64,000 bases of DNA, taken from positions 1 through 64,000 of the forward strand of contig JAHBUW010000012.1 in the NCBI GenBank assembly GCA_019637875.1, written 5' to 3'. The stretch is from Pseudobdellovibrionaceae bacterium. Lineage in GTDB: Bacteria > Bdellovibrionota > Bdellovibrionia > Bdellovibrionales > Bdellovibrionaceae. A model generated the notes under the pieces. It ran no database searches. It was given only the letters and a program-made list of their open reading frames with translations, and had not been told where the DNA came from. How positions within the stretch are numbered: the stretch's first letter is position 1; each line of letters opens with the position of its first letter. The position numbers and the translations under genes are program-made. This document shows positions 29,396-61,039 of the stretch, in pieces.

Positions 29396-29442
29396 AATTA
29401 TGAACTTCTGAAATATCGATTGGGCAATTTAAGTGGGTGTTC

Positions 29443-31206: not shown

Positions 31207-31218
31207 GTAGAAGGGCCA

Positions 31219-32119: not shown

Positions 32120-32121
32120 GA

Positions 32122-32817
32122 CTATTTCTCCTTGTTTTGAGTTTCGTGTTTAATGATTTGGTGAACTGTTTCATGGTGCCAACGCAGCCCTCGACGGGGT
32201 GGAACTTTGCGGTCATTCAGGTGATTTGCGATAGCCGTGAGGCTCTTACCTGACTGCCACAGCCTGAGAATTTGAAGGACATTTCTATATTCTTTGGGGT
32301 CTTTCACAAGCTGACCCTCTAGCCTTGCGTAGCCATAGCGTTGGACAGGAGAGCTTGCTTGAATGGTCCGCTTCGCCTTCTTAGTTGGCTTTCGGTTGCC
32401 AACTCTCAAGGTTAGTCCACTAGCGGTAAGGGCTTGTCGAATGGAACTTTTCGCAAAGCCTGTCTTGCTCTCTATTTCGCGTAGAGTATATCCGGCCTCG
32501 TAAAGAGGCGCGGAAACCTCGAAAATCCGCTCTTGTGATTTTGGAAAAAACTTAATAATATCATGGGGTATATTGAACTTTAGTGGCGGTGTACTTAGCT
32601 GTGCTCCACGTCCACCATTCGTCAGTCTTTTCGAACCACCGACTTTTAAAAATTTGGAAAGCGGTTGGGATTCTTCAAATGACTGAGAAATACAATAAAA
32701 CAGAGCTACAAGAAGCTCTGAAAGTTTTAAAATCCCTTCTTGATAAATGCAGTAAGGCCAAGACTTCCGTAAAAGAGAAATCCTCGCAAGAAACCCTGCT
32801 TGCTCGTCAACTGACAC
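32122..32817 (-). CDS. Helix-turn-helix protein with recombinase-like C-terminal part
   Basis: Frame of 231 residues. From about residue 85 it reads as a DNA-binding protein: a helix-turn-helix (YTLREIESKTGFAKSSIRQ), a basic linker, then KDPKEYRNVLQILRLWQSGK followed by SLTAIANHLNDRKVP and a WHHETVHQII end. This second part resembles the Recombinase DNA-binding domain (Pfam PF07508 type) of serine recombinases, without the catalytic domain. The first 80 residues look unlike protein and overlap a plus-strand frame; yet no ATG/GTG/TTG exists between 32817 and the domain, so the gene may be truncated or use an unusual start. It directly precedes the 58-residue peptide. Confidence 0.6.
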   Translation of the reverse strand: MSVDEQAGFLARISLLRKSWPYCIYQEGILKLSELLVALFYCISQSFEESQPLSKFLKVGGSKRLTNGGRGAQLSTPPLKFNIPHDIIKFFPKSQERIFEVSAPLYEAGYTLREIESKTGFAKSSIRQALTASGLTLRVGNRKPTKKAKRTIQASSPVQRYGYARLEGQLVKDPKEYRNVLQILRLWQSGKSLTAIANHLNDRKVPPRRGLRWHHETVHQIIKHETQNKEK

Positions 32818-32876
32818 TCCGCTTGAGCCTTCGCCGTAGCTCGATCTCTAGCGAAAACGCTCGATCTGTGGTTTGA
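32679..32876 (+). CDS. Possible small coiled-coil protein
   Basis: A 65-residue frame starting at ATG 32679. The first 45 residues have a clean amphipathic helical pattern (ELQEALKVLKSLLDKCSKAK), typical of a real small protein. The tail is Ser/Arg-rich. It is antisense to the doubtful N-terminal part of the frame at 32122-32817, so both cannot be right over this stretch. No strong ribosome-binding site. Confidence 0.4.
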   Translation: MTEKYNKTELQEALKVLKSLLDKCSKAKTSVKEKSSQETLLARQLTLRLSLRRSSISSENARSVV

Positions 32877-33216
32877 GCGTTTCCCAGCACTCTCGTGTGT
32901 ATTTGCGGAAGAAGAAGGGTTGAAGCGAACGGCCACGCGTATTTTTCGTCAATATACGTTGCTTCAACCAAGGCATTTGGAAGCCCGACCACTCGCCGCC
33001 AGGAAGTGCAAACAAGTTGAACCTCAAAGCGGGAAAGACTTCAAAGAAAAGGATCTCGCGTAATTCATCGATCGTGTATTTTGAGTCGGCGCAGGCTTTC
33101 GCCATTCTTTCGAAATTGATCTCGGTATCCATAAAGAGCATTTGCATCGCATCCCAGACCGGTTCTCGATCGGCGACGTCCTCTTCGATCTTTTTGGCGG
33201 CGACAGATTGACTCAT
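32848..33216 (-). CDS. DUF7079-like protein
   Basis: About 122 residues from ATG 33216 (the frame is open to 33252). The core WDAMQMLFMDTEI, then KYTIDELREILFFEVFPAL and GGEWSGFQMPWLKQRI match what I recall of the small DUF7079 family, whose function is unknown and which often sits in accessory DNA. It is the last gene of the island; composition rises immediately after it. The start is uncertain because neither candidate has a good ribosome-binding site. Confidence 0.6.
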   Translation of the reverse strand: MSQSVAAKKIEEDVADREPVWDAMQMLFMDTEINFERMAKACADSKYTIDELREILFFEVFPALRFNLFALPGGEWSGFQMPWLKQRILTKNTRGRSLQPFFFRKYTRECWETLKPQIERFR

Positions 33217-33285
33217 ATTCACGAGTTTCACGTTGAAGACATCTTCGGTCAACAGGTCGCCGTTTGGAAAGAGAGGCGCGACGCC

Positions 33286-34344
33286 TTACTTCGCCGCGCG
33301 GGTGGAGTTGCCCCGCACCGTATTGCCATCTTCGTCCACGCGGATCATGTGCTCGACCGGTAGCTTGTAAATCACGTTCCCGGTGACGACGTTGTCGCGG
33401 GCGAAATCGCGGTTGTCGACGCTGCTGCCCCACGGGAAGCCGGCGTCCATTTCGCAGTACGAGCGGCCGCCGTTACGCGAGGCGATCCAAATCGACGGAT
33501 CGCGCCCTTGGTAACGGTTGTAGTAAAAGAAGTTGTTTTCGATGCGGTTGAAAGACGCCGTCGCGTGACGAATCGTGCCGCCCTCGCCGCAGTTACGGTA
33601 AAGAAAAATTCCGCCTTCGCTGAGCCCCGACAGATAGTTCCCGCGGATCAGATTGTGGCTGGAGGCATCGACGGCGATGACCTCGCGTGAGGTCTTCACA
33701 TGCAGTTGGTTGTTCTCGATGCGGTTGTGGGCGGACTCGGTGTCCAAATAGATGGCGACGCTCGAAGAACGGCCGTTCAGCACCGAGTGGCGTAAAGTGA
33801 AGTAGGTCGTGCCCGGCGAGACATAGAGCGGAATGCCCGCGTTTCCGGTGATCGTCGTTTTTTCGATGAGCACGCGAGTCGGCGCGGCGGCGCGCGCGCG
33901 TTCCGTATGGCGCTCGTCTTCGCGGGACGAAGCGCGCAGGTTTTCGCCCTCGCCGTTGCGGTCCATGCCGTAGATCCGCACGCTGCCGGTGATACGGCAG
34001 TTTCGGATTGTCACGTCGCTGGGTCGTGACCAGGTGGCTTTACCTCGCGCATCCATTCCCTTCACGCTGCGGATGAACAGCGCTTGGCCATTTTCGGCGA
34101 TCAGGCGCGCGCCCCGACAGTCGAAGGTCAGTCCGCTCGCGGCCGCGCCTTCGATGAGCACGCGTTTGGTGATGACGTCCGTGGATTTCAGTGTGGGCGC
34201 GCAGCGAATGCGGATCTGGGCCTCACCCCGAGTGGCCGGAGCGAGAAGCGCGCTCATCGTTTTGGGGCCGCAAGTGGGGGTGGCGGCGTGGACCATCGGT
34301 CCCGCCGTCAGAAGAGTCAGAATCGTGTAAAGGGCGCAACGCAT
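33286..34344 (-). CDS. Secreted right-handed beta-helix protein
   Basis: A 352-residue exported protein with a signal peptide (cleavage near VHAATP, about residue 21). Repeated short strands with Asn ladders follow, such as VTIRNCRITG, TRVLIEKTTITGN, NRIENNQLHV, NLIRGNYLSG and FNRIENNFFYYN. This is the parallel beta-helix (pectate-lyase/NosD-like) fold, often binding or cleaving polysaccharide. No catalytic residues can be assigned. I chose ATG 34344, which opens the signal peptide; the frame runs 26 codons further. It marks the return of GC-rich backbone after island 1. Confidence 0.85.
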   Translation of the reverse strand: MRCALYTILTLLTAGPMVHAATPTCGPKTMSALLAPATRGEAQIRIRCAPTLKSTDVITKRVLIEGAAASGLTFDCRGARLIAENGQALFIRSVKGMDARGKATWSRPSDVTIRNCRITGSVRIYGMDRNGEGENLRASSREDERHTERARAAAPTRVLIEKTTITGNAGIPLYVSPGTTYFTLRHSVLNGRSSSVAIYLDTESAHNRIENNQLHVKTSREVIAVDASSHNLIRGNYLSGLSEGGIFLYRNCGEGGTIRHATASFNRIENNFFYYNRYQGRDPSIWIASRNGGRSYCEMDAGFPWGSSVDNRDFARDNVVTGNVIYKLPVEHMIRVDEDGNTVRGNSTRAAK

Positions 34345-39076: not shown

Positions 39077-40765
39077 TCAAGCCGCTTTCTGGCCTTCGAT
39101 GGTTTCGCGTAATTTCTGAATCGTGACGTTCAAAGACGCCGACTGCTCGGACAGTCGCGTCGCCGCGTCGGCGGATTCATGACTGCGTCCCGCGTTTTGC
39201 TGCGTGACTTGATCCAGCTGGTGCATCGCTTTGGTCAGCTCCCGGACTCCTTGATCCTGCTCACGACAAGCCGTCGAAATTTCGGCCGCCATATTCGAAA
39301 CCTGACCGACGTTCGTCACGATCTCGGACAGGACGCGGGCGCACTGCTGCGCCACGGTCGTCCCTTCCTCCACGCGCGATTGGCCAGAGGAAATCAACGC
39401 CCCGACTTCGGTTTGCGTACGGTTCACAATGGATTCGACTTTACTGAGGCTGACCTCGAGCAGTTCCCCGATCTCTTGCGAGGCGCTGCCGCTGAGCTGC
39501 GCGAGTTTGCCGACTTCCTCCGCGACGACCGCGAAACCTTGGCCGTGTTCGCCGGCGCGTGCCGCTTCGACCGAGGCGTTGAAGGACAAGAGCTGCGTTT
39601 TAAAAACGATGTCGTTGATGACCTGGGTCTTCGCGCCGATATTTTGGATCACGGCGACGATCTCGGCCATCTCGGTGCTGGATTGGGTGATACGTTTCAT
39701 GATGTCGCTGTTGGCGTCGTGGATTTGCGTCATGGATGTCATCATCTGCGCCATGACCTCGTGGCCGTGTTCGGCCTTCCGGCGCGACTCGGCCGAGGTC
39801 GAAGATGTCGAGTTCGCGTTCTCGGCGTTTTTCGCGACCATGCTGCTCATCTCTTCGATCGAGGCCGAAGTCTCTTCCAGTGACGAAGCCTGGCGCGAAG
39901 CCGAGTCGGAAAGTCCACGCGCGGTGCCCGCGATCTGCTCGGACGCGGTATTGACGTCTTGGCTTGCCTCGGTGAGGCTCGATACGACTTGGGTCAAAGT
40001 GCGTAAAGGACCGCGCAGCGAAAGCGATGCGATCAAGACGGCGCACACTCCGCCCAGGATGATCGCGATGATCAACCAGCCGGCGGGATCGATCCACTGG
40101 CCTTCCACGCGCGCCGCCGCGACTTCCGCGATGTTTTGCGAGATCGCGACCACGCCGTGAAGTTTACCGTCGCTCCAGTTTTCCATCGGGTAGCCCAGGA
40201 TGTCGCGTCCGTCGCCCCAGGGGCTTTTCTCGGGGGCTCCGTGGCACGTCATGCAGCCCTGGCTTTCGCTCAAGCGAACGGGGCGGTACATCTTGATGAC
40301 GCCGTCCTCTTTCACGATGAGTTCCCGGAGCTCCGGTTCCTTCTCGAATTTTTTCAGGATCTCGATCTCGGGTGCGGTCGCCTTGTTCTCTTTGCGACGG
40401 GGATTTTCCGCGAAGATGCGAAATTGGTAATGATCGTTTTCAGAGTTTTTACTGCCGATCATCATGGTCGCGAAGATCGGGACCTGCTGCAGGATCTCCA
40501 TGCGTTCCGCCTCGCTGAAGTGTTCGGGCGAGGAATGTTTCTCGCGCATGCGCAGGACGACGGAATCCAAACCTCCCTGGCGCGCGACGTAGTCCGTGGC
40601 GGCTTCCAGCTGGCGATGGATCGTGCGTTCACGCGCGATGATGCCTTCTTCCAATTCCTGCGCGTTGAAATGCAAAAAACCGAGAATGGCGACGATTGAA
40701 CAGAGGGTTCCGGCCATGGCGACGATGGCCAGGATGCGGACTTTGAGACTCAGCTGCTGAAACAT
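39077..40765 (-). CDS. Methyl-accepting chemotaxis protein with haem c (Tll0287-like) sensor
   Basis: A 562-residue transmembrane receptor. Helix 1 is at about 8-30. The periplasmic domain (about 30-225) carries a CMTCH haem-c site near residue 170, followed by GDGRDILGYP, as in DUF3365/Tll0287-like domains. Helix 2 is at about 228-250. The cytoplasmic part has the conserved signalling hairpin (KTQLLSFNASVEAARAGEHGQGF). The sensor probably detects redox state, oxygen or nitric oxide through haem, requiring cytochrome c maturation. No HAMP domain is obvious between helix 2 and the signalling part. Single gene; the promoter should be within 40766-40850. Confidence 0.92.
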   Translation of the reverse strand: MFQQLSLKVRILAIVAMAGTLCSIVAILGFLHFNAQELEEGIIARERTIHRQLEAATDYVARQGGLDSVVLRMREKHSSPEHFSEAERMEILQQVPIFATMMIGSKNSENDHYQFRIFAENPRRKENKATAPEIEILKKFEKEPELRELIVKEDGVIKMYRPVRLSESQGCMTCHGAPEKSPWGDGRDILGYPMENWSDGKLHGVVAISQNIAEVAAARVEGQWIDPAGWLIIAIILGGVCAVLIASLSLRGPLRTLTQVVSSLTEASQDVNTASEQIAGTARGLSDSASRQASSLEETSASIEEMSSMVAKNAENANSTSSTSAESRRKAEHGHEVMAQMMTSMTQIHDANSDIMKRITQSSTEMAEIVAVIQNIGAKTQVINDIVFKTQLLSFNASVEAARAGEHGQGFAVVAEEVGKLAQLSGSASQEIGELLEVSLSKVESIVNRTQTEVGALISSGQSRVEEGTTVAQQCARVLSEIVTNVGQVSNMAAEISTACREQDQGVRELTKAMHQLDQVTQQNAGRSHESADAATRLSEQSASLNVTIQKLRETIEGQKAA

Positions 40766-40946: not shown

Positions 40947-42092
40947 CTATTTCTCGTTCGTGAAGTTCACGAACTCTTGGAACAGACCTTGCGAGTACTT
41001 GATCAGACCGAGGGCCAGGCCGCGGTCGCACGAGTTTTTGTCGGCCACATCCGACGACGCGCCCGCGATCAAATCCGTCAACGCATCTTTCGCTTTCAAC
41101 GCCGCGCCGGTCGCGCCGCCGCCGATTCCCGAAAGCAGGTACTGACGAATCAAGGTGCCCTTCACGCCGGTGAAGAACTTCGAACCCATCGCGATGTTCG
41201 ACAAAAGGACCACGCGGGTTTTCGCGCCTTCCGGATAGAATGCGAAGACGGTCTTCGCGCCGCGCACCAGGTGATCGGCGTAGATCGCCTCTTGCGTGAT
41301 GACCGCAGCCGGACGGCGACCGAAGTAGGCTTCGGCTTGTTGCATATCGGTGGATGAATTGAAGTCGACGCGGCTGATGACGTAGATCGACTCGTTACGG
41401 AGCTTTTCTTTGTCGGGGTTTTTCGAGAAGTAGTCGCGAATCCCGTCCTTCATGACCGCGCAGCCGTAGTCGCGCAGATCGAACACGGACAGCAGATAGT
41501 TCCGCGACAGATCGAGCGATTTGTAAGCGATGTGGTCCTCTTCCAAGGCTGAAGCGACGAAGCTTCCGGGAATCTGGAAGTGGTAGTGATCCAGGTCGAC
41601 GACTTCCGCCATGTTGGCGACGCGCTCGGCGGTCAGGTTCATTGAGTTGAAGTCGCGATCGATCAAGGCGCTCAGCTTCACTTCCACGACGTGGGTGGTC
41701 GCTTCGCTTTGCGCGAGCATGGTCGCGGCGTCTTTGGACATCTTTTCGATTTTCGCGCGGCCGCCTTCGTTGCGTGAGTTCACGACCTCGGCGAACTCCG
41801 CGGCTTGGTTTTGGTACTGCGAAGCGCTCAAGGTCTGGGGTGCGGGCATCCGCAGGCCGCCTTGTGCCATGCCACGCAGCACGGGGGCGACTTCCATCGC
41901 GAAGGCTTTGCCCGACGCTTGGGTTTTCCATTCCGGGTAGGGGCGGTAGCTGTAAGCGTAGGAAGCGCGGTTCGGCTTCGTGTCTTCGAACATTCCGAAG
42001 TTTTCGCTTTTTTCGCTGAAGTTCAGGGTGGGGGCGGCGAAGGCGACGGTGCCGCAGCAGAGCAGCGCGAAGCCAAGGACGAAACGTTTCAT
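40947..42092 (-). CDS. Secreted protein of unknown function
   Basis: A 381-residue exported protein (signal peptide MKRFVLGFALLCCGTVAFAA). The mature part is mixed alpha/beta with two widely spaced cysteines and no motif I recognise. A small glycine-rich stretch (GIGGGATGAALKAKDALTD) is near residue 340. ATG 42092 was chosen for its AAGGAG site and signal peptide. It follows the penicillin-binding protein by 26 bases on the same strand, so it is likely the last gene of that cluster. Confidence 0.8.
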   Translation of the reverse strand: MKRFVLGFALLCCGTVAFAAPTLNFSEKSENFGMFEDTKPNRASYAYSYRPYPEWKTQASGKAFAMEVAPVLRGMAQGGLRMPAPQTLSASQYQNQAAEFAEVVNSRNEGGRAKIEKMSKDAATMLAQSEATTHVVEVKLSALIDRDFNSMNLTAERVANMAEVVDLDHYHFQIPGSFVASALEEDHIAYKSLDLSRNYLLSVFDLRDYGCAVMKDGIRDYFSKNPDKEKLRNESIYVISRVDFNSSTDMQQAEAYFGRRPAAVITQEAIYADHLVRGAKTVFAFYPEGAKTRVVLLSNIAMGSKFFTGVKGTLIRQYLLSGIGGGATGAALKAKDALTDLIAGASSDVADKNSCDRGLALGLIKYSQGLFQEFVNFTNEK

Positions 42093-42118
42093 TACAAACT
42101 CCTTATCGAGGGGGGAAA

Positions 42119-45100
42119 TCATTGGACGCAACTTTGGTTATCAGTTTCGGGAAGCGGAATTCCCACGGCATCGCGACGAAGCGCGCGGGGGAAATATTCG
42201 GTGATGGCGTTCGAGGGCACGCGGCAGATCCCGTTGGTCGCGCGGTATACGCGACCCGAGCCGGGATCGATCTTTTCGGCGCGGATGTCCGGAAGCTCCG
42301 ACGGCAGCGGCAACGGATCTTCCAGTCCTTCGGGATGAAGCTTGTAGTAAGCCTCCATGAAGTTCTCGAAAATCGGCAAGGCGACGTTTCCGCCGGTGCG
42401 TTTGTCGCCCAGGTCTTTATAGATCTTGGCGTCGTCGTAACCCACCCAGATCACGACGGCGATTTTGTTCGTGAAGCCCGCGAACCAAGCGTCACGGCTG
42501 GAGTTCGTCGTGCCGGTCTTACCGCCGATCAAGTGTGACCAACGCGCAATCCGCGTCGCCGTCCCTTGCGACAAAATCCCCTGCATGATGTAACGCAGCT
42601 GCGCGACCGCGCGGGGATCGACGTCGGTGATCGCCTTGAAGGCCTCGGGTGCCCGCGCGAAGCCGTACTTCAAAGAGTCGCGGTAAGCGTGCAGCTCGTT
42701 CCAACGTTCCAGCGAGCGGTCGATCAGGATCGGGTCGCCGTTCTTCAGAACTTCCTTCAAAAAGACGGCGTCACGACGAAGCCCGCCGTTTCCGATGGCC
42801 GCGTACATCTGCGCCATGCGCAGTGGCGTCGTCTCGTAACCGCCCAGCAAAAACGGGAAGCAGGGTTCGTGACGTTTCAAAGACGGCAGAAGTCCGCGCT
42901 CGGGATACGCGCCGAAGTGCGCGGCCAGGTCGTAGATCTCGTCCAGCGTGCGGCTCAGCGGCACGCGCGCGTCCGCGGCGATATCGCCCAAGTCGGTGAA
43001 ACCACCCGTCGAGCGGAATCCGCTCAACCCGATGAAGAGATTCATGAGCGAACGGTTCACCGAGTCCTGCAGCGCCGTCCGCAAGGTCATCGAGCCAGGT
43101 CCCGCCGAGTAGTTCTTGGGCGTCCACACGTATGGGCAGTTCGGCACTTTCGGGAAGCGGACCGGATCGTTCGACAAAACTTGCGTGGGACTCACGCCCT
43201 TGTTCAAAGCGTACAGGTAGGTGATCGGCTTGATCGTCGAGCCCGGCTCGCGCAAAGAGACCGTCGCGCGGTTATTTTGCGCGAATTTGCCGTAAGGTCC
43301 GGCGCTGAAGCCGCCGGTCAAAGCGAGGACGTCACCGGTCTCAAGATCCAGAACCACGCCCGCGCCTTGCACCTTCGGCACGCGGCCCAAACGCACGCCT
43401 TCGGCGCCGCCCAGATTTTCGACGAGCGCGAGGTCGTAATCCTGCAGGCGCTGGAAGATCGCGCGGTCTTCGCCGCGCACGGGCACCGCGACGCCGGTCT
43501 CGAGCGTCCACTGGTTCGTGCGCGGAAGTTTCACCGCCATCAGCCAGTTCGTTTCGGGGTAGGGGTGAGCGACCTTCAAGCCGAAGAAAATTTCCGACAG
43601 CGAGGGGATCTCGTCGTCTTCATCCTTCGGGGTCAGGCGCGCTTTGATGTTCACGTTTCGCCCGGTGGTTTCGTCCAGCCAGGGGCTCCACTCCAGACGC
43701 GCGCCCCGGTGCCCGGCGGTCGTCGCTTCATAGTTGATGAGTCCTTGTTGCAGCGTCCGGGTCAGGATCTCTTGCAGGTCCGAGTCGTAGGCGGTCTGGA
43801 TGTCGAAGCCGCCCAGAAGCCAGCGCGGGTCGCGCGCGTGCTGACGTTTCAACCGCGAAAAGTCGTTCGTGATGTGGCCGGTGAAATAGCGCGACAGAAC
43901 GCGCCGACGATCGGCGCCCGCTTTCGGGATGACGTTCATGGGCTCGGCCTGCGCGGCCGCCTTTTCCGCGGCCGAGATGAAGCCCTGCTCTTCCATGACC
44001 TTGATCACGGTATCGCGACGAAGCTTCGCCTCTTCGGGGTTGCGGTGAGGATTGTATTTGCTGATCCCCTTCGGCAAAGCGGCCAGCAGCGCGATCTCAG
44101 AGAGTGTGAGCGTGGCCAAGTCTTCTTTGCCGAACAGATCGATGGCCGCCATCTTGACGCCTTGGGCGTCGGGCGTGAGGTCGATCAGGTTCAGGTAGTA
44201 GGCAAGGATCTCGTCTTTCGAGTAGCGCTTCTCGACCATCGGGATCATCAAAATTTCTTTGAGTTTGCGGCGCAGCGTGCGCATGCCGTGCGTGCGCTCG
44301 ATCTCGACGTCGTCGTTGAAGAACGCGTTTTTCACGAGCTGCATGGTGAAGGTCGAGCCGCCCTGCTTCGAACCCTGCACGCCGCCGTAATAAAGCCGCT
44401 TCACGGCTTCGAAATCGAAACCGTTGTGGTCGTTGAAACGTTTGTCTTCGATCGCGGTGAAGGCTTGGTACATCCGGCGGGGGATCTCTTCGTGACCCGC
44501 GAGCCGGCGCCGGTGGCCTTTACCGATGTAGCGTTTGCCGTTGCGTTCGGTGAACGAACGGTCAAAGATTTCGCCGATGCGCTGACGGTTTTTGTCGAAG
44601 ACGAAGCTCGCTTGGGGCATTTCCGGAAGCTCGTTGACGTTCGGCAGCTCCTCCAGAAGTCCCTGCAGGTATTTGTACCCGCCGGTGAAATCGACCTGCG
44701 CGGCGACCGCTTTGCGATCGACTTTCCAGTGACAGAGGGCGGTGACGACTTTGTAGACGTCCGAGGTCACGAGCTCACCATCGGCGGCCTCTTTCAGGAC
44801 CTTGCCGACGAACTCCTGCAGTTCGGGTTGTAAAAGCACGACGAGCTTCGAGCCCAGATCGTCGCGGTTCGCGGTCTCGCCGCGCATCCACTGTTCACGC
44901 TCCAGGAAAATGCGGTCCTGCAAAGCCGAGCAGATGTGGTTGAGCTCGGGGACGAGCTCCGCGTTGGACATCTGCAGATAAGTCGCGAGCGGTTTGGGCT
45001 GAAAACGCAGCACTGCGGCGACGTCGCCATCGGTCGCGCAGTGCATTTCCGCCGTGTTCATTTCATTCTCGAGGCTTTGGCAGACCTGTTTGTACTTCGC

Positions 45101-45295
45101 GCGGTTGTCCTTCAGGCGTTCGCAGCGTTTTTGCGCGTACTGGCCTTTGAGTTCCTCGTATTGCGGACAGGCGTTGCGCTCGGCAACCGCCTTCACGGCG
45201 GCGTCAATGGCGGATGGGTCGATCGGTTCGATCAACTGACCCAGCGCAAGAAGTGCCGCGACGACGATGTCTGCGGTAGAGCCCAAACTCATCAT
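42119..45295 (-). CDS. Class A penicillin-binding protein (transglycosylase/transpeptidase)
   Basis: A 1058-residue bifunctional peptidoglycan synthase. The first 230 residues are a unique, cysteine-containing helical region without a clear transmembrane anchor, unlike PBP1A/1B. The glycosyltransferase (GT51) domain is at about 260-440, with the catalytic Glu in AIEDKRFNDHNG and GGSTFTMQLVKN. The transpeptidase domain is at about 640-1010, with SxxK in REPGSTIKPITY, SVN and KTGTTNSSRDAW. It polymerises and crosslinks glycan on the periplasmic side. The missing anchor and long N-terminal region suggest that it needs partners, perhaps the neighbouring secreted and anchored proteins. It begins 6 bases after the stop of the 273-residue protein gene. 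Confidence 0.92.
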   Translation of the reverse strand: MMSLGSTADIVVAALLALGQLIEPIDPSAIDAAVKAVAERNACPQYEELKGQYAQKRCERLKDNRAKYKQVCQSLENEMNTAEMHCATDGDVAAVLRFQPKPLATYLQMSNAELVPELNHICSALQDRIFLEREQWMRGETANRDDLGSKLVVLLQPELQEFVGKVLKEAADGELVTSDVYKVVTALCHWKVDRKAVAAQVDFTGGYKYLQGLLEELPNVNELPEMPQASFVFDKNRQRIGEIFDRSFTERNGKRYIGKGHRRRLAGHEEIPRRMYQAFTAIEDKRFNDHNGFDFEAVKRLYYGGVQGSKQGGSTFTMQLVKNAFFNDDVEIERTHGMRTLRRKLKEILMIPMVEKRYSKDEILAYYLNLIDLTPDAQGVKMAAIDLFGKEDLATLTLSEIALLAALPKGISKYNPHRNPEEAKLRRDTVIKVMEEQGFISAAEKAAAQAEPMNVIPKAGADRRRVLSRYFTGHITNDFSRLKRQHARDPRWLLGGFDIQTAYDSDLQEILTRTLQQGLINYEATTAGHRGARLEWSPWLDETTGRNVNIKARLTPKDEDDEIPSLSEIFFGLKVAHPYPETNWLMAVKLPRTNQWTLETGVAVPVRGEDRAIFQRLQDYDLALVENLGGAEGVRLGRVPKVQGAGVVLDLETGDVLALTGGFSAGPYGKFAQNNRATVSLREPGSTIKPITYLYALNKGVSPTQVLSNDPVRFPKVPNCPYVWTPKNYSAGPGSMTLRTALQDSVNRSLMNLFIGLSGFRSTGGFTDLGDIAADARVPLSRTLDEIYDLAAHFGAYPERGLLPSLKRHEPCFPFLLGGYETTPLRMAQMYAAIGNGGLRRDAVFLKEVLKNGDPILIDRSLERWNELHAYRDSLKYGFARAPEAFKAITDVDPRAVAQLRYIMQGILSQGTATRIARWSHLIGGKTGTTNSSRDAWFAGFTNKIAVVIWVGYDDAKIYKDLGDKRTGGNVALPIFENFMEAYYKLHPEGLEDPLPLPSELPDIRAEKIDPGSGRVYRATNGICRVPSNAITEYFPRALRRDAVGIPLPETDNQSCVQ

Positions 45296-45301
45296 GGTGC
45301 T

Positions 45302-46123
45302 TTAGCCTTTACAGTCGCTCATGAGCCCGCGCAGACGGGGCGCGGCGCCCGCTTCGCGGCGCAGTTTCAGTTTGAGGTTTTCGAAAAGAAAGGCCTGCGA
45401 GGAGTCCTGACCGAAACGGCAAAGACTGCGGCCCAAACGCGCAAGCTCACCATCGGCGAGATCCGCGAACTGACGGAAAAGCGAAGTCGCCGCGAAAGCC
45501 TCGGCGCCGGTACCGCTTTCGATCATGCGTTCGAATTCGAGGTGGGCACGTTCGACCAAACGGGACTTCAAGGTTTCGTCCGCGGGGTCGAGCGCGGCGC
45601 TGATGATTTGCGTTTTCGCGAGGGGATCCAGACCCGGCAGCTCCATCGCGCGCATGAGCGCCTGACCATCGGGAAGTTCGGCCAGCAGATTCGCGGCCAG
45701 GGCCGCGTGACCCGGCGACAGGCGCAGGACCGCCAGCAGCAGGTCGCCCGCCGCTTTCACGTCGGTCAATTCATCCAGCTGGATGAGCGCCTCGAGTTTT
45801 TCGAGATGATCGAAAAGATCCGTGTCCGAGCGACGGTGTTTGCACGCGTTGCGCGGCAGACGGCACGCGAGGTCCGCGCGCAGCTCTTCCAGGATACCCG
45901 ATTTTTCGGGCGAAGGGGACGTGGCCGGGGTCACCGCGTTCAGGTGCGCCGCGATCTCGGCATTTCTTTGCTCGAGCTGCTCAAGTGTGTCCTCGAGCGC
46001 CGCGACGCCGTCGGTGGACGCGCCACCGGCGACGGACGTGCGGCCCGCGCTCCAGAGCGCGAGGCCCGCCGCCAGGACGAGCATCAAGATCAGCATGAGG
46101 ATACGCGGATAGCGCAGGATCAC
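45302..46123 (-). CDS. Membrane-anchored protein of unknown function
   Basis: A 273-residue protein with one N-terminal helix (about 7-27), a coiled-coil stretch (ALEDTLEQLEQRNAEIAAHL) and a helical, leucine-rich periplasmic domain reminiscent of tandem helical repeats. It has five cysteines, including the pair ACRLPRNAC. No family is recognised. The start overlaps the stop of the large secreted protein by 4 bases, and the PBP gene starts 6 bases after its stop, so the three are one operon and may form one complex. Confidence 0.8.
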   Translation of the reverse strand: MILRYPRILMLILMLVLAAGLALWSAGRTSVAGGASTDGVAALEDTLEQLEQRNAEIAAHLNAVTPATSPSPEKSGILEELRADLACRLPRNACKHRRSDTDLFDHLEKLEALIQLDELTDVKAAGDLLLAVLRLSPGHAALAANLLAELPDGQALMRAMELPGLDPLAKTQIISAALDPADETLKSRLVERAHLEFERMIESGTGAEAFAATSLFRQFADLADGELARLGRSLCRFGQDSSQAFLFENLKLKLRREAGAAPRLRGLMSDCKG

Positions 46124-49100
46124 GGCTCCAGGCTCCAGGTTTTCGCGTCAAGTTTTCCGCCGAGTTGGATGCGGGGCTCTTGCGCGCTCCGGCCCGAAAG
46201 CCAGGTCTGCACGAAGCCGCCGTACTCTTCCACGGGCACGTAACGGGTCACGCCGCCGCGGGACTTCACGACTTTCACTTCCACGATGCGCACGCCCTGA
46301 ACCTTCGCGTAGTCGGTGCCGGCCGCGTCGACCGCTTTTTGTCCGGCGACGGGTGTGGCGCGCTGACCGTCTTTTTGGAAGAGCTCGCAAGCCACATAAG
46401 TCTTGTTGATGGACGCCGCGGTCGTGCGGCGATTGCCGCGCACGAGTTGCCACATGCCGCCGCGGAACTGGCCGGTTTTGAGTTCCGGCAGGAAGCGGGT
46501 GACGACTTCATCCGAAGGCAGATGGTTCGTGAGGACGGTGACCACGCGGCGAACGGGGCATTTCGAATCGTCGCCCAGATCGTAAACCGCGCGACCATTG
46601 TCGTTCAGTACGCTCTGTTCGCTGAGGGCGAAGGCGGGCATGTACGCGGCGGTGCCGGTTTCAACGCCTTGGCCATCGACACGCGACACTTTGACCCAAC
46701 CGGCGCGCATCGCGACCTGCGGATCGCGCGCGTCGATCGCCAGGATCTTCACTTGCTCACCGCTCATCACGAGGCCCTGGATCTTTTGATCCGCGCGGTC
46801 GACGGGCGACGCGTAAAGCTCGGCGCCTTCCCACGACAGGACTTCGCGAACTTCGCCGACCTTCAAGGTCAGTCCTTGCAGCTGTGCCGCCGACGGAGCG
46901 GGCGTGGCGAACCGGTACTTCGAGGTTTGGAAGCTCGCTTCGCGCGCTTTCGCGGTCGACGCCGTATAGTCGTGGGCCAGCACGCGGATCAGCGCTTTGA
47001 CCAAACGATCGCGGCGCGCGTCCAGGTTCTGCTCGCTATTCAAAGTCGACATCTCGCTCATCAACGCTTCGACCGCCGCGCGCTCGATCAGATCTTGCGC
47101 TTGGGCTTGGTGCGTTTTCGGCAAGGTTTGATCCAGCACCGAACCGCGGAACTGCAGCTGCGCCGTCAGCGCGGACCGGTAGCTCTGACCGGCCGCGACC
47201 GCTTGGCACACGCCCTGCGCGCGCGCTTTCATGTCGGCGCCGGTTTCCCAATAGCCGACCGCACCCGTCATCATCGGGAGGACGGAATTCGCGCCGGCCT
47301 CCGCGCAGCTCACCGCCGCGGGATCGAGCAGACGGCTCATGCTGAGGTCGTAGTTTTCAAAAATCGCCCGTACGCTCATTTCGACGTAAGCCGCGACGTC
47401 CAGCAGGACGCCGTTTTCGATGGCGTTCTGGAAGCCGGTGAAGGGCATGTGGAACATCCCCCAGCGGCCCGCATCCGCGGTGGCGCCGGTTTGGATGACG
47501 TTCGAGCGCGCAAGGTAGATGCCCGTGTCTACCGAATCGAATTTCATGCGGCTCGAGCAATCGGTCTCGAGGAACCAGCCCATGTGTTTCGGGCTTTGGT
47601 AAGTCGCGATGACCTGTTTTTGCGACTCGATGTCCGCGTTTAACTTATCCCACGCGGCATCTTTGTTTTTCTGGGCCGTATCGATCTGGGTTTTGTAAGC
47701 CGCGAGCTGCGTTTCTTCCTTGCGCAGCAGTTCGAAGGACTGATCGCGCAGCTTCGACGCTTCGATCAAGGCGCGGGTCAGGTGCGACAGCACGTACTCG
47801 GAAAAGTTCGAGTGGCGTGAAGCCGTCTGGTAGCGCTCGTTCGCGGCGGTCGCGGCGGCCGTGCGGGCGTTCAGCTGCTGGGTGAGTCCTTTTTGATCGT
47901 CGCCCAGCTGCTCGTTCACCGCTTGGATTTGCAATTTCAAGGTGTCGATCGCGCGGCCCACGAACTCCGATTGGGTCAGGATGGCCGAAAGATTCGATTG
48001 AACTTGGCTGCGGCTCTGCAGGATTTGCGGCTGACGGATTTTGATCGCGGCGATGCGCGCGCCCCGCGCGGGGGTCTGCGCGATCAGCGCTTTCACTTCC
48101 GATTCGGATTTTTCGGTCGACATCAGACCGGTCTCGAGTTTGTGCGCGACGGTTTGCAGCTCTTGCAGTTCGGTCGCGAGCGTCGCTTGCTCGTCGTTCA
48201 GTTGTTTTTCGGCCGCGAGTTGCAGTTCGCGATCCGCGCTGAGTTTGCGCAGTTTCTCTTGGTTCGCTGCGAGTTCGGTTTCGAGCTTCGCGCGCTGGTC
48301 TTGCAGCGCTTGCACCGCACCGCGGACGGCGGCGAGCGCCGCTTCGTCGGTTTTCAGTTGGATGTCGGCTTCTTGCAGAACGCTGAAGTCGCCGCGGGGA
48401 TTTTGCATGTTCTCCGTGGTGAATTTACGCCACTGCTCCATCAGGCCGTTGGTTTTGAAAACCTCTTCGGCTTTCGCCATGCACGCCGCTTCGGGCATGG
48501 CGGTGCCGCGGCTCACGCGGTCTTTGATGGTGCTGAAGCACGCCATCGTGTTTTCGATGAGCGTCGATTGCTCTTTCACCTTCGCGGTCAGGCGTGCCAG
48601 CTCGGCCGTCGACTGTTGGTGCAGGCCGATCGCTTCGCGCAGACCCATGGCCAGGCGATCCTGTTCGGCGCGCAGTCCATTGATCTTCGTTTGCACGTCG
48701 GCAAGCGGTGCGACCGAAAGTCCCGCCGCGCACTGTTTCAGCGCCGACTCTTGGAAGTGCTGCAGGTCCGAGGCTTTCATGGCCTGAGTCAGCGGCAGCA
48801 CGAGATACGGAAGCGTCGCCATACGGGTCATGGGGCGCGCGAAATTGCGGCTCAGGTCCTCGAAACCTTCCGGCAGACGGCCCAGCTCTTCGAGTTTCGC
48901 TTTGTCGAAATCGACTCCGCGCAGTTCGGCCTCTTCGACCAGGCGGCGCGCCTGGGCGGGGTTCATGCCCATCTGTTTCATGGACTCTTGCAGCACGCGT
49001 CCGGTCATCAGACGGTAATAGAGTTGCGCGTTGATTTCGTTGAGCACCGGGCCGCGGACGTCGAGGCTTTTCAGCGTTTCGACCGAACCTTGCGAGACAC

Positions 49101-49296
49101 CATTTTTCTGGAGCAGAAACCAATCCTGCGCGCCCAGGCGGACTTGGGCATCGCCCTGGGACGAGGCCTTCAGCGGCGAGAAGCCCACGTCGGCCGGCAA
49201 TTTTTCACCGGGAAAGAGCCACTCGGGGGACTGAGCCCAAGCGAGCGAGGGGAGAGTCAGCGAAACAACCAGAGCGTAACGAAGACGAGCGAACAT
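46120..49296 (-). CDS. Large secreted coiled-coil protein with SH3-like region
   Basis: A 1058-residue exported protein (signal peptide ending SLAWAQ, about residue 22). Residues about 190-560 are nearly continuous coiled coil. After it come a region of unknown fold with several cysteines, and at about 810-900 an SH3-type segment (VREVLSWEGAELYASP ... GWVKVSRVDG) like those that bind peptidoglycan. I do not recognise the family as a whole. First gene of the operon with the anchored 273-residue protein and the class A PBP, so a scaffold for wall synthesis is an attractive inference. Its equal length with the PBP is coincidental. Confidence 0.82.
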   Translation of the reverse strand: MFARLRYALVVSLTLPSLAWAQSPEWLFPGEKLPADVGFSPLKASSQGDAQVRLGAQDWFLLQKNGVSQGSVETLKSLDVRGPVLNEINAQLYYRLMTGRVLQESMKQMGMNPAQARRLVEEAELRGVDFDKAKLEELGRLPEGFEDLSRNFARPMTRMATLPYLVLPLTQAMKASDLQHFQESALKQCAAGLSVAPLADVQTKINGLRAEQDRLAMGLREAIGLHQQSTAELARLTAKVKEQSTLIENTMACFSTIKDRVSRGTAMPEAACMAKAEEVFKTNGLMEQWRKFTTENMQNPRGDFSVLQEADIQLKTDEAALAAVRGAVQALQDQRAKLETELAANQEKLRKLSADRELQLAAEKQLNDEQATLATELQELQTVAHKLETGLMSTEKSESEVKALIAQTPARGARIAAIKIRQPQILQSRSQVQSNLSAILTQSEFVGRAIDTLKLQIQAVNEQLGDDQKGLTQQLNARTAAATAANERYQTASRHSNFSEYVLSHLTRALIEASKLRDQSFELLRKEETQLAAYKTQIDTAQKNKDAAWDKLNADIESQKQVIATYQSPKHMGWFLETDCSSRMKFDSVDTGIYLARSNVIQTGATADAGRWGMFHMPFTGFQNAIENGVLLDVAAYVEMSVRAIFENYDLSMSRLLDPAAVSCAEAGANSVLPMMTGAVGYWETGADMKARAQGVCQAVAAGQSYRSALTAQLQFRGSVLDQTLPKTHQAQAQDLIERAAVEALMSEMSTLNSEQNLDARRDRLVKALIRVLAHDYTASTAKAREASFQTSKYRFATPAPSAAQLQGLTLKVGEVREVLSWEGAELYASPVDRADQKIQGLVMSGEQVKILAIDARDPQVAMRAGWVKVSRVDGQGVETGTAAYMPAFALSEQSVLNDNGRAVYDLGDDSKCPVRRVVTVLTNHLPSDEVVTRFLPELKTGQFRGGMWQLVRGNRRTTAASINKTYVACELFQKDGQRATPVAGQKAVDAAGTDYAKVQGVRIVEVKVVKSRGGVTRYVPVEEYGGFVQTWLSGRSAQEPRIQLGGKLDAKTWSLEP

Positions 49297-49424: not shown

Positions 49425-50741
49425 TTGGAACCACTCCAAATGGGTTTAAACTGGCGCTCAATGCTTTGGGACTTCTTCTGGCGTTTTCTTTTTTCCAAAC
49501 GGGCGGGGTCCATTGTCCGCAAGATTTCGTGGCTGAGCTTCGCAGCCCTGACCGTGAGCGTAGCTTCGCTTGTGATCGTCATGGCGGTCATGAAGGCGCT
49601 GAACACCAATATCCGAAATCGCCTGCTCGCCGTGGAACCCCACCTCGTGATCGAGATCACGGACAATAACGAATACAAAACCGCCATCGCCCAGATCGAA
49701 GAGCGCCAGGTGCTGAAGCCCGAGTGGCGGGTCTTTCCGTTCGAAGTACAGGACGTGATCCTCCGTTCAGTCGAGGGACGCTTTCGCGGCGCGGTCGCGC
49801 GCGGACTCACGCCCGAATCGCTCGACTGGATTTTGTCGGAGATCAAACGCGCCCAGCAGAACGAACGCCGCGAAGAGGGGCCGGTCACCGCGCCCGAGAT
49901 CAACCCCGACGGCACGGTGCTGGGCGAGCGCGGCGCGCTCGAAGCGGGCGAGATCATGGCCGGGCTCGATCTCGCGCATTCGCTGGGGATTTTTGAGGGC
50001 GACTCGCTGACCGTGGTCGCGCCGGAGGGGCTTATGCTTCCCGCGGGCGAGACGCCGAAGTTTGAGCGCGTGATCGTCAAAAAAATTCTCAGCACGAATC
50101 TGCAGGACTTCGACGGCGAGGGGCTTTTTTATCTGCAGAACAAAACGCTGCCGAGCTTTCAGTCCTCGGCTTCGCTTCGTCGCGGTTACGAGATTTGGAC
50201 CGAGGACTCGGCGGGCGCGATCGAACTGAAAGAGGATCTGATCCGCCGGCTCGAAGGTTTGCCGGTGAAGGTTCAGACCTGGCAGGACCGCAACGCCGCG
50301 CTTTTTCTGTCGTTGAAACTCGAAAAGCTCGTGATCGGGCTTTTCCTCAGCATCGCGTCGCTCGTCGCGGGCTTTTCGCTTCTCACGGTGCTGGGGCTTT
50401 TGATTTCGCAGAAAACGCGCGAGATCGGTCTGCTCCAAGCCATCGGGCTTTCGCGGCGGGAAGTTTTCTTTTTGTTTCAAGGGCTCGGCGTGCGGCTGAC
50501 GGGGCTTGGACTTTTCTGCGGCTCGTTCATCGGTCTCGTGATCGCGACCTACATGGAACTTTATCCGCTGAAGGTCCTTCCCGACATCTACTACGATTCC
50601 ACGGTTCCCGCCGAAGTGGATCTGCCGTTCGTGATCGTCATTGTCATTCTGGGCTATCTGCTCAGCTACTTCGGCGGCCTTTTGATCACCCGGCCCCTGG
50701 CGAAATTCCAACCCACCGAACTTTTACGGATGAAAAAGTAG
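49425..50741 (+). CDS. LolC/LolE-like ABC transporter permease
   Basis: About 430 residues with four transmembrane helices: one at about 28-50 and three in the C-terminal FtsX domain (about 295-430), with a large periplasmic domain between. This is the LolC/LolE/MacB layout. Lol permeases extract lipoproteins from the inner membrane for delivery to the outer membrane. Signature pieces are SKRAGSIVRKISWLSFAALTV-like start and LLISQKTREIGLLQAIGLSR in the FtsX part. No LolD ATPase is adjacent. The start is uncertain: TTG 49425, ATG 49440 or ATG 49461, none with a good ribosome-binding site. The RDD gene follows after 10 bases. Confidence 0.88.
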   Translation: MEPLQMGLNWRSMLWDFFWRFLFSKRAGSIVRKISWLSFAALTVSVASLVIVMAVMKALNTNIRNRLLAVEPHLVIEITDNNEYKTAIAQIEERQVLKPEWRVFPFEVQDVILRSVEGRFRGAVARGLTPESLDWILSEIKRAQQNERREEGPVTAPEINPDGTVLGERGALEAGEIMAGLDLAHSLGIFEGDSLTVVAPEGLMLPAGETPKFERVIVKKILSTNLQDFDGEGLFYLQNKTLPSFQSSASLRRGYEIWTEDSAGAIELKEDLIRRLEGLPVKVQTWQDRNAALFLSLKLEKLVIGLFLSIASLVAGFSLLTVLGLLISQKTREIGLLQAIGLSRREVFFLFQGLGVRLTGLGLFCGSFIGLVIATYMELYPLKVLPDIYYDSTVPAEVDLPFVIVIVILGYLLSYFGGLLITRPLAKFQPTELLRMKK

Positions 50742-56515: not shown

Positions 56516-56607
56516 GCCCCGGTGGCGAAATCGGTAGACGCAGCAGACTTAAAATCTGCAGCTTCGGTTAAACGGGCGTGCCGGTTCAAGTCCGGCCCGG
56601 GGCACCA
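56516..56607 (+). tRNA. tRNA-Leu (anticodon TAA)
   Basis: A 92-base class II tRNA with encoded CCA. The acceptor stem is GCCCCGG/CCGGGGC, anticodon stem GCAGA/TCTGC with loop CTTAAAA (anticodon TAA, reads UUA). It has a long variable arm (CAGCTTCGGTTAAACGGGC region) and T arm GCCGG-TTCAAGT-CCGGC. It marks the left edge of island 2. Confidence 0.97.
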
Positions 56608-56668
56608 AATGTCAAGCTCTGCGAACCAACATTTCTGGTTCGGTTTTCAAATAAAAGTCGATTCGCCC

Positions 56669-56800
56669 CTAAACCCCTAAAGGGGAAGAGCCAGCCCCTT
56701 TCAGGGCCAGCTCTCGCTCAAAATGTTCTTTATCCACGATCCAATGGATTTTCACCGTCTCAGTGCCCACTTCGACTTTATGGATGAACTTTTTAATCAT
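56669..56800 (-). pseudogene. C-terminal remnant of a second serine-type recombinase
   Basis: On the minus strand the frame reads MIKKFIHKVEVGTETVKIHW and then IVDKEHFERELALKGAGSSP before a TAG at 56669. This looks like the last part of a large serine recombinase, the same position as LIRRLVDSLVYTREG in the remnant at 18298-18896. Everything upstream is replaced by an IS3-family element whose end is at 56800, and no recombinase sequence continues beyond its far end. It lies 60 bases behind tRNA-Leu, where an island integrase would be expected. Confidence 0.6.
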
Positions 56801-56872
56801 TGAGCTGACCTGAGAAAATGCTGCCACTTTTAACTTTTATCTCCTAGCGTCAATAGACCAAGGGAGAGTCAG

Positions 56873-57136
56873 ATGAAGAAGCGGTTCACGGAAGAACAGA
56901 TCGTTAAAGCGATCAGCAGACTTCGCAACGGTACGCCAGTAAAAGAGCTCGGTCGCGAACTCGGAGTCACGACGACAACGCTCTATGCGTGGAAGAAAAA
57001 GTACAACGACATGTCGGTCAGCGAAGCCAAACGCCTTCGCGAGCTCGAACAGGAGAACGCAAGATTGAAGCGCTTGGTTGCCGATCAAGCACTCAACATT
57101 GAAGTCCTGAAGGACATAAACTCAAAAAAGTGGTGA
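56873..57136 (+). CDS. IS3-family transposase OrfA (helix-turn-helix)
   Basis: An 87-residue protein. The helix-turn-helix is in residues 8-45 (GTPVKELGRELGVTTTTLYA), followed by a leucine zipper (LRELEQENARLKRLVADQAL). Known role: binding the terminal repeats and pairing with OrfB. GGGAGAG is 5 bases before the ATG. Its 3' end overlaps orfB by 7 bases around AAAAAAGTGG, a classical slippery site for -1 frameshifting to an OrfAB fusion. Confidence 0.92.
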   Translation: MKKRFTEEQIVKAISRLRNGTPVKELGRELGVTTTTLYAWKKKYNDMSVSEAKRLRELEQENARLKRLVADQALNIEVLKDINSKKW

Positions 57137-57945
57137 GCCCAAGAGCACGCAAGGAAGCGGCCAGGTACGCAATCACCGAACACGATTTGTCGCAGCGGCA
57201 GATCTCACGGTTCTTGGGCATTGCTCGAACGACATTGAGTTATACGCATCGCCCGAAGAACGATGAGTCGATCGAGGCGCGCATGAAGCAGCTCGCATCG
57301 AAGCATCGTCGCTGGGGCCTCAGAACATTGCACAACCTCATGTGGCGCGAAGGTCTTGTCGCGAAAAGCAAATCGAAGTCCGAGCGAATTTACAAGAAGC
57401 TGAGACTTCAAATCAAAACGCGAAGGCGTCAGAAGCTTCCAAAGGTCGTGCGGGTTCCGTTTGAAAAGGCATCGCGTCCGAATGAGATCTGGTCGTTTGA
57501 TTTCATTCACGACTACTTCGAGACGAATCGTCGGCTGAAATGTCTCGCGATTGTCGATGATTGCTCAAAACGCTCGCCAGGACTCTTACCTGCGTACTCG
57601 ATCACGTCGAAAGATCTCACCGAGTTCTTCGACTCGCTACCAAATCTTCCGGTGAAGCTTCGATGCGACAACGGACCAGAAATGAGCTCTCGTGAATTTA
57701 TGGACTGGGCAATGAGGCGCAACATCGAGATAGAATTTATTGAACCAGGAAAACCGATCCAGAACGCGTTCATCGAATCGTTCAATTCTCGGTTCAGGCA
57801 CGAATGCCTCAATGGAGAATTGTTCTTTGATCTCGAAGACGCACGGAAGAAGATCGAACACTGGCGACGGATCTACAACGAGAAACGACCACACTCGTCT
57901 CTCGGAATGAAGACGCCGGAGGAATTTGAAGAAGAGTTTGAATGA
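57130..57945 (+). CDS. IS3-family transposase OrfB (DDE integrase domain)
   Basis: A 271-residue transposase with catalytic acids Asp in WSFDFIHDYF, Asp in LRCDNGPEMSS and Glu in NAFIESFNSRFRHE, and the final YNEKRPHSSLGMKTP block. An N-terminal HTH_21-like region precedes the integrase core. The frame is complete and overlaps orfA, so the element looks intact. It starts at GTG 57130 in the overlap; in practice it is likely translated by frameshift from orfA. Confidence 0.93.
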   Translation: MVSPRARKEAARYAITEHDLSQRQISRFLGIARTTLSYTHRPKNDESIEARMKQLASKHRRWGLRTLHNLMWREGLVAKSKSKSERIYKKLRLQIKTRRRQKLPKVVRVPFEKASRPNEIWSFDFIHDYFETNRRLKCLAIVDDCSKRSPGLLPAYSITSKDLTEFFDSLPNLPVKLRCDNGPEMSSREFMDWAMRRNIEIEFIEPGKPIQNAFIESFNSRFRHECLNGELFFDLEDARKKIEHWRRIYNEKRPHSSLGMKTPEEFEEEFE

Positions 57946-58007
57946 TAACCTGACGCTGGACGATAGAAGTAAAAAACGGACGGAAAATTCAGGTCAGCTC
58001 AACACTC

Positions 58008-59192
58008 CTAGCTCAGAAATATCTTTAGGGAACCAAAAAGTGCGCCCGCCAAGACCAACCATGCTGAATTGATCTTCCATCGGATCAAGATGACGGCACT
58101 AACCACACCAAGAGCAATGGTTGTTGTATCAACCAAAGCTGCTTTTCCAAGTAGAATGGTGACAGCACCCATAAGGCCAAGAGATGCCGCATTCACGCCA
58201 TCTAAAAATGCACCCGCCCACGTTGATTTTCTAATTGCCGGAATCAGTCGGCTCGAAATCGCCACAAAAAAGAAGGATGGGAGAAAAATGCCAAGTGTCG
58301 CGATGAACGCTCCGCTTACGCCAGAAAGAATGTAGCCGATGAAGGTTGCTGTGGTGAAGACGGGACCTGGAGTAAATTGACCCACTGCTGTTGCATCTAA
58401 AAGCTGACTTTGAGTGAGCCAGCCATATTTTTCAACCAGCGTGCCTTGCAAGAACGCAAGAAGAACATATCCACTGCCATAGAGCACTGAGCCAACTTTC
58501 AAGAAGAAAAGAAATAGTTTTCCATGGCTAAAAGGAACAAGCATTGGAACTGTCGCCAAAGCGCCGAGTGCCCATGCAGATCGGCGTGAAAATATGCTTA
58601 CAGCCAATAGGGCACCGATAGTTGGACCGCTTCCTCGCATTTGGACCTTCCGAATGAGAAGAGTCAGAAATCCAAAACCAAGCAAAATCAAAAGCTCCGA
58701 TTGTCCCAAGAGACTTGCACCCATAGCACAAACCCCTAAGACAGCTAAGAGCTTGGACTTCATTGTTTTACGCGCAAGATTCCAAATGGCTTGAGCAATG
58801 ATGGCTACAATGACGGGCTTCGTCCCATACAAGAGGCCCTGCACTTCCGGGAGCTTTCCGTAGATAGAATAAGCCCAAGCAACGACCATAACGATGGTCA
58901 TTGCGGGAAAAATGAAACACACACCAGCTACAATCAATCCCCAAAAGCCTGCGCGTTCTTGTCCAATGTGAATGGCCATCTCTGTAGAGTTCGGACCTGG
59001 AATCAAGTTCGTGGCTCCGATGAAATCCAAGAATTGATTTTCGGTGAGCCATTTGCGTTTTCGCACAACCTCTTCTTCCATCATAGCGATATGAGCCGCA
59101 GGGCCACCGAAGCCTATGGTTCCGAGTTTAAGAAAAAGAAGTGCGAGTTCTTTAAGGTTTTTTAAAAGATCCTCTTTTTTTAAATCGTGCAC
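58008..59192 (-). CDS. chrA: ChrA-family chromate transporter
   Basis: A 394-residue long-chain (two-domain) CHR transporter. Both halves start with the family motif: FLKLGTIGFGGPAAH at the N-terminus and VGSVLYGSGYVLLAFLQ in the second half. LIPGPNSTEMAIHIG and VGQFTPGPVFTTATFIGY are the paired P-G-P motifs. It exports chromate with or in exchange for protons or sulfate. It follows arsR by 10 bases on the minus strand, so an arsenic-sensing repressor may control it. The stop is 6 bases from the IS end; the protein still looks complete. Confidence 0.92.
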   Translation of the reverse strand: MHDLKKEDLLKNLKELALLFLKLGTIGFGGPAAHIAMMEEEVVRKRKWLTENQFLDFIGATNLIPGPNSTEMAIHIGQERAGFWGLIVAGVCFIFPAMTIVMVVAWAYSIYGKLPEVQGLLYGTKPVIVAIIAQAIWNLARKTMKSKLLAVLGVCAMGASLLGQSELLILLGFGFLTLLIRKVQMRGSGPTIGALLAVSIFSRRSAWALGALATVPMLVPFSHGKLFLFFLKVGSVLYGSGYVLLAFLQGTLVEKYGWLTQSQLLDATAVGQFTPGPVFTTATFIGYILSGVSGAFIATLGIFLPSFFFVAISSRLIPAIRKSTWAGAFLDGVNAASLGLMGAVTILLGKAALVDTTTIALGVVSAVILIRWKINSAWLVLAGALFGSLKIFLS

Positions 59193-59202
59193 GGGTCATC
59201 AC

Positions 59203-59538: not shown

Positions 59539-59542
59539 AAAT

Positions 59543-59569
59543 TAATCGTATATCGTAATCATACGATTA
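59543..59569. promoter_or_regulatory. Probable ArsR operator
   Basis: Perfect 9-bp inverted repeat TAATCGTAT (59543-59551) and ATACGATTA (59561-59569) with a 9-base spacer, in the 44-base gap between divergent arsR and acr3. It is placed to block both promoters, as expected for an ArsR-type site. Confidence 0.75.
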
Positions 59570-59582
59570 TCAAGGATCACTT

Positions 59583-60620: not shown

Positions 60621-60621
60621 A

Positions 60622-61038: not shown

Positions 61039-61039
61039 T

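Follow-up and report, generated by a model that had tools for sequence, protein, structure and literature searches.

The locus studied here raises the question of whether a class A PBP and the three exported or membrane-anchored proteins encoded beside it make up one unit of cell wall synthesis, and from which protein families the four of them come. It lies in a stretch of 64,000 nucleotides from a Pseudobdellovibrionaceae bacterium, uncultured and related to predatory bacteria; this stretch as a whole is referred to as the window.

Gene arrangement of the locus

Four open reading frames make up the cluster:

46120..49296, minus strand: P0002, secreted protein of the lysozyme superfamily (predicted) with a coiled-coil insertion, probable pseudoenzyme, 1058 aa
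45302..46123, minus strand: P0003, bitopic membrane protein with a GTG start, probable partner of the lysozyme-family gene, 273 aa
42119..45295, minus strand: P0001, class A PBP with an extended N-terminal domain, 1058 aa
40947..42092, minus strand: P0004, secreted protein of a family with a predicted START/Bet v 1 fold, PBP partner, 381 aa from the ATG at 42092

Coordinates, lengths and gene order are those given by the first-pass annotation, as are the tight junctions of the first three genes: P0002 and P0003 overlap by 4 bp and a gap of 6 bp separates P0003 from P0001, while 26 bp lie between P0001 and P0004. The four genes may well be co-transcribed; a scan of the cluster for promoters and terminators revealed nothing above shuffled sequences. 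Cysteines had also been pointed out in the PBP and the three unknown proteins, and were found in all of them (eight in P0002, four in P0003, ten in P0001 and four in P0004, two of the last falling in the signal peptide). Throughout, signal sequences and anchors were called by visual inspection and from hydropathy, and Pfam and NCBIfam searches of P0002, P0003 and P0004 gave no match above the cut-off. The adjacency observed is not due to chance, because both gene pairs of the cluster, P0001 with P0004 and P0002 with P0003, recur as adjacent pairs in other genomes.

Just downstream of the cluster, at 39077-40765, lies a chemoreceptor gene whose product shows a Tll0287-like sensor domain and a CxxCH motif of the heme-binding type, and on the other side an FtsX-like permease gene (49425-50741) diverges from P0002 at a distance of 128 bp. 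The window also contains two low-GC stretches. The one at 18214-34000 (0.42-0.53, compared with about 0.60) starts at a tRNA-Ala gene and is possibly a mobile or acquired island; encoded in it are a thiolase, an AraC-type regulator and an rve-type integrase/transposase (18923-19744). The other, at 56516-64000, starts at a tRNA-Leu gene; besides an rve-type integrase (57130-57945), it encodes a chromate transporter and a protein of the bile-acid symporter family.

A group of class A PBPs with an extended N-terminal domain

Three regions were delimited in P0001:

44576..45295, minus strand: extended N-terminal domain, residues 1-240, with a weak hydrophobic segment and conserved Cys
43994..44521, minus strand: transglycosylase domain, PF00912, residues 259-434
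42353..43366, minus strand: transpeptidase domain, PF00905, residues 644-981

Both enzymatic domains are matched by Pfam (Transgly, 2.6e-45; Transpeptidase, 8.3e-25), and the catalytic E283 and E347, S686 and K689 of SxxK, S745 and N747 of SxN and the KTG at 926-928 are invariant across nine relatives, so that its sequence identifies P0001 as a class A PBP in which the motifs of both activities, glycosyltransferase and transpeptidase, are intact. As its genome contains four other TG-containing genes, it is probably an accessory synthase. The extra N-terminal region had earlier been put at about 230 residues; 258 residues precede the Transgly match, and no Pfam family matched the extended N-domain.

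A search of 60 relatives uncovered a few PBPs that are closer to P0001 than ordinary PBPs are, all with an N-terminal extension and a secreted protein encoded directly downstream (in G051, G055, G057, G008, G122, G124 and G123, the last with two loci); further PBP/partner pairs are a divergent one in G046 and one in G136, in which the PBP is cut by the contig end. Within the order, the downstream secreted partner adjoins the extended PBP in 11 of 11 assessable loci, the window included and the G134 locus, where the contig ends, left out. The N-domains have in common an N-terminal A-x-x-L-x-x-x-Q segment (with invariant A13, L16 and Q20 in P0001 numbering) and conserved Cys; that of P0001 is divergent and matches weakly, with an E of 0.17 in a leave-one-out HMM comparison and of 0.001 over 39 columns by leave-one-out hhalign.

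The observation that the PBP lacks an obvious membrane anchor held up, and weak hydropathy turned out to be a property of the whole extended group. The best 19-residue hydropathy within the first 90 residues ranges from 1.11 to 2.03 in 10 extended PBPs. Of the 30 other TG-containing proteins compared, 29 lie between 1.87 and 3.24; the exception is an ORF of 438 aa from the window's own genome, with a value of 0.25 and a start that looks wrong. The peak of P0001 (1.81) is below that of nearly all ordinary PBPs compared, and no Lys or Arg precedes its hydrophobic segment, where ordinary PBPs mostly have 2-4. In a tree of the TG domain, the extended PBPs fall close together, with moderate support only and with one long-branch sequence inside. 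Judged by these sequence features, P0001 belongs to a distinct PBP group, marked by Cys in the N-domain and by an N-terminal segment of unusually weak hydrophobicity.

A predicted START/Bet v 1 fold in the partner of the PBP

P0004 can be assigned to the family of downstream partners with an E of 3e-4 in a leave-one-out HMM search, in which it ranked top of the 301 ORFs of the window, and of 2.7e-5 by hhalign. The fold was approached via a family member sharing 17% identity with P0004 (L054:8805-9893), the AlphaFold2 model of which, calculated from 12 sequences, reached a pLDDT of 84 and a pTM of 0.85. Foldseek found 7 PDB matches to this model at E<=1e-3, all of START/Bet v 1 type and with a prob of 0.98-1.0 for the best, and the best 50 rows of VIA-align were all START, Bet v 1, PYL, CoxG or aromatase/cyclase-like, led by the START domain of CERT (Z 10.1, rmsd 3.9 over 176 residues). 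Since the matches of both programs are all of this type, the family is, by the model of this relative, one of exported proteins with a helix-grip (START/Bet v 1) fold, and P0004 itself would be expected to share it. Its N-terminus, MKRFVLGFALLCCGTVAFA-AP, reads like a type I signal sequence and shows no good lipobox. With such a fold, P0004 might be a ligand-binding protein.

How P0004 might act is a matter of two readings. Lipid II normally reaches synthases laterally, from the membrane, and this usual route argues against the idea that P0004 is not an allosteric activator but a shuttle that transports lipid, whether as substrate or as product, for a weakly anchored PBP, the candidates being lipid II, undecaprenyl phosphate and other membrane lipids. 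The Bet v 1 fold serves protein regulation and catalysis too. The strict pairing with a PBP group of weak anchor would suit a shuttle, as would the fact that START folds carry lipids (PMC2577659), but we regard it as unlikely and prefer to see P0004 as a regulatory partner of the PBP.

The distribution of the family bears on the suggestion of the first-pass annotation that the cluster might serve a predatory life style. It is sparse: 9 of the 141 genomes searched in the order have matches (E<=0.01), as do 11 of 369 in the phylum, and the large genus g7, which we take to be Bdellovibrio, has none. Class A PBPs, furthermore, work at the membrane of the cell's own envelope. Although Bdellovibrio has been reported to use secreted wall enzymes on its prey (PMC7511926, PMC10127604), a predatory role of the cluster, directed at the wall of the host, is unsupported and highly improbable.

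A probable lysozyme-superfamily protein with an inserted coiled coil

P0002 has one clear relative, a protein of G100, a MAG labelled Bdellovibrionaceae (BLASTP 2.6e-13 and 6e-7), and through it we reached compact relatives in ten genomes of the order, G132 among them. These are members of a lysozyme-like family that 55 of the 369 genomes searched in the phylum Bdellovibrionota possess. Invariant among 30 compact members are a Gly, the Glu of HE[SG], four Cys, a W and an N. The AlphaFold2 model of one of them (L106; pLDDT 91.6) was aligned best with MltE by VIA-align (Z 9.4, rmsd 3.0, 143 residues). Among the other leading rows were the lysozyme-superfamily enzymes MltF, goose lysozyme, GH23 chitinase and phi6 lysin, and besides these a GH124 cellulase and an unnamed phage protein; nearly all of the top 30 belonged to that superfamily. 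Foldseek alone gave no match to the same model at E<=1e-3, and a sequence search of the PDB with A5, A6 and A13 yielded chance matches only. Because of the VIA-align result, the motif and weak Pfam SLT matches in three members (best 0.005), we consider the compact family to be lysozyme-like. DslA was tried as a relative of the compact enzymes, and the A13 profile matched no DslA chain in the PDB; the two may still be related. Two divergent lysozyme-like proteins (L127 in G056 and L128 in G052) have QETYWSHYR where others have HES, and their genes are each followed by one for a protein of ~305 aa with a hydrophobic N-terminus; they are probably distant versions of the enzyme/bitopic pair dealt with below.

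The compact-family profile scored P0002 alone not above shuffled sequences, and the link runs via G100 and A1: the A1 profile, built from P0002 and the G100 protein, matched the compact enzyme family in a profile-profile comparison (E 8.4e-8, Prob 94), the link being made by the second half of P0002. The HMM of the compact family matched the G100 protein in two ordered pieces (E 3.7e-23) on either side of its coiled coil, which is for this reason regarded as an insertion in the lysozyme domain. The Glu and GxMQ of compact relatives lie 65-89 residues apart, whereas the corresponding distance is 385 in G100 and 435 in P0002. The latter protein can be divided as follows:

48727..48807, minus strand: first-half lysozyme motif, residues 164-190, YLVLPLTQAMKASDLQHFQESALKQCA, with A175 at the Glu column
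47617..48714, minus strand: coiled-coil insertion, residues about 195-560, a ~360-residue coiled coil with 5 Pro in 366 residues
46960..47604, minus strand: second half of the lysozyme domain, residues about 565-779, aligned by hhalign to profile 160-352
46669..46791, minus strand: possible SH3-like region, residues 836-876, PF08239 E 0.35

P0002 would thus derive from a widespread lysozyme-superfamily family of the Bdellovibrionota, and, on the model of its compact relative, may have a lysozyme fold itself. The SH3-like character ascribed to P0002 earlier is only weakly borne out by its own match to PF08239 and gains from its relatives, 12 of 30 of which have SH3_3 matches, the best at 4e-8. 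A Peptidase_M23 (LytM) domain was not matched in P0002 at E<=1.

The motif YLVLPLTQAMKASDLQHFQESALKQCA was placed by the HMM against FLvlALaipqHESrliHfrkvegevC, a weak local alignment that alone is not significant, and it is this alignment that puts Ala175 at the catalytic column, occupied by Glu in 30 of 30 compact relatives and in G100. According to the same alignments, P0002 has GMFHMP in place of GxMQxN and is missing the invariant W and N, while Cys is kept at all four invariant positions: C189, together with C580, C664 and C697, which fall on invariant Cys columns by hhalign. Active-site residues lost and fold cysteines kept are the pattern expected of a pseudoenzyme, and that is what P0002 probably is.

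Another residue might have taken over, in which case P0002 would still be an active muramidase or lytic transglycosylase. The candidate is E577, common to both coiled-coil members within the same motif (GWFLETDC / GWYIENRC); GRWGM follows it at about 33 residues, a distance like that in the enzymes. However, the profile alignment puts this motif at a PxC segment of the compact enzymes that has no conserved Glu, the canonical Glu of HES is still present in G100, and P0002 is without the conserved Gln/Asn of GxMQxN and, by the same alignments, without the invariant W and N. An active P0002 appears quite unlikely to us, and we treat it in the following as a probable pseudoenzyme.

Two gene pairs and their joining

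Across the phylum, the compact enzymes are encoded with a recurrent neighbor. Of 20 loci in another class, 19 encode a bitopic protein with usually four Cys downstream of the enzyme gene, and in the order such a partner follows the enzyme gene in all 10 compact loci; most of these partners were recognized from their sequence and the others from their position. P0003 has one hydrophobic N-terminal segment (residues 8-26), and its only four Cys (87, 94, 235 and 271) match the spacing of this family; by sequence alone, homology is not significant (leave-one-out HMM; hhalign E 0.07). Position, topology and cysteine spacing being the only basis, P0003 is probably a member of the bitopic-partner family.

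The cluster can consequently be read as two ancestral pairs, a PBP with its START-fold protein and a lysozyme-superfamily protein with its bitopic protein, which as part of the overall explanation we think slightly more probable than not to be right. Occurrence of the genes apart in relatives had been named in the first-pass annotation as evidence against a complex, and here the result is divided: the two pairs are separate everywhere else, but each pair stays together. Because the two modules are joined only in the window's genome, among the genomes searched, and their co-occurrence in the order is not significant (3 observed, 1.09 expected, P 0.08), a functional link of the two pairs rests on one operon-like arrangement. 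Chance rearrangement could then have brought together two pairs that work independently, as would agree with G046 and G136, which hold both pairs at separate places, with the co-occurrence statistic, and with the coiled coil being older than the joining, since G100 has it and no PBP is found on its contig. The single direction of the four genes and gaps of <=26 bp speak against mere neighborhood, which we find rather unlikely.

Possible function and comparison with known systems

Our preferred reading, held with a little more confidence than doubt, is that the cluster encodes a peptidoglycan-synthesis unit consisting of a PBP, a possibly ligand-binding START-fold partner and a non-catalytic wall-binding scaffold. 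P0004 would bind the PBP, probably at its N-domain, perhaps take up a hydrophobic ligand, and activate or localize the synthase. With its catalytic Glu apparently lost and a long coiled coil gained inside the catalytic domain, P0002 would bind peptidoglycan and scaffold the synthase, and P0003 would be its membrane dock; the physical interaction, the ligand and the direction of regulation are what we infer here. An undescribed wall-synthesis or wall-remodelling complex had been proposed before; the family folds now assigned fit that proposal and keep it plausible, and the proteins may form a complex. There are precedents: PBP2a without its anchor is impaired in GTase activity (PMC4632607), and the interaction between partners is stimulated in the periplasm by MxaD, which is Bet v 1-like (PMC2577659). 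In a bolder version, the START-fold protein would be a carrier or sensor of lipid (lipid II/undecaprenyl) for a marginally anchored PBP, with the disabled lysozyme as wall-binding scaffold and the lipid-linked precursor handled partly off the membrane, a combination that strikes us as a long shot.

Resembling this arrangement, PBP1A-LpoA, PBP1B-LpoB and CsiV represent bifunctional synthases with cognate periplasmic partners and group-specific non-catalytic PBP domains (PMC4632607). In contrast, the partner family here has a predicted START/Bet v 1 fold and apparently an ordinary signal peptide instead of being an outer-membrane lipoprotein, and the anchor of the PBP is weak. With MltE, MltF, goose lysozyme (GH23-like) and Bdellovibrio DslA, the compact relatives of P0002 share the predicted lysozyme-superfamily fold and an ES-type catalytic Glu; they differ in having no Pfam or PDB sequence match above threshold and in being paired with a bitopic protein, and P0002 differs further by its coiled-coil insertion and the apparent lack of the catalytic Glu. 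In its working, though not by membership, P0002 may be likened to EnvC, which contains a coiled coil. EnvC and DipM are reported to be degenerate LytM proteins that regulate hydrolases and thus employ a disabled periplasmic hydrolase domain for regulation (PMC8416486, PMC10336132); P0002 is of the lysozyme family and not LytM, is encoded beside a synthase, and its regulatory role is a proposal. MxaD likewise is an exported Bet v 1 fold stimulating the interaction of a partner enzyme (PMC2577659), in methanol oxidation there and, as we propose, in wall synthesis here.

Within the collection searched, full-text queries on class A PBPs with a START domain, which gave no paper, and on periplasmic START proteins brought up none that mentions such a pairing in its listed title or abstract. 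To our knowledge, Gram-negative bacteria employ outer-membrane lipoproteins and Tol or division factors as partners of their class A PBPs. If one PBP group has a START-fold protein as its partner, wall synthesis might respond to a hydrophobic ligand as a further input. The lysozyme family, together with the bitopic protein paired with it, merits a name, because it is widespread in the Bdellovibrionota and its catalytic domain is left uncovered above threshold by Pfam and NCBIfam.
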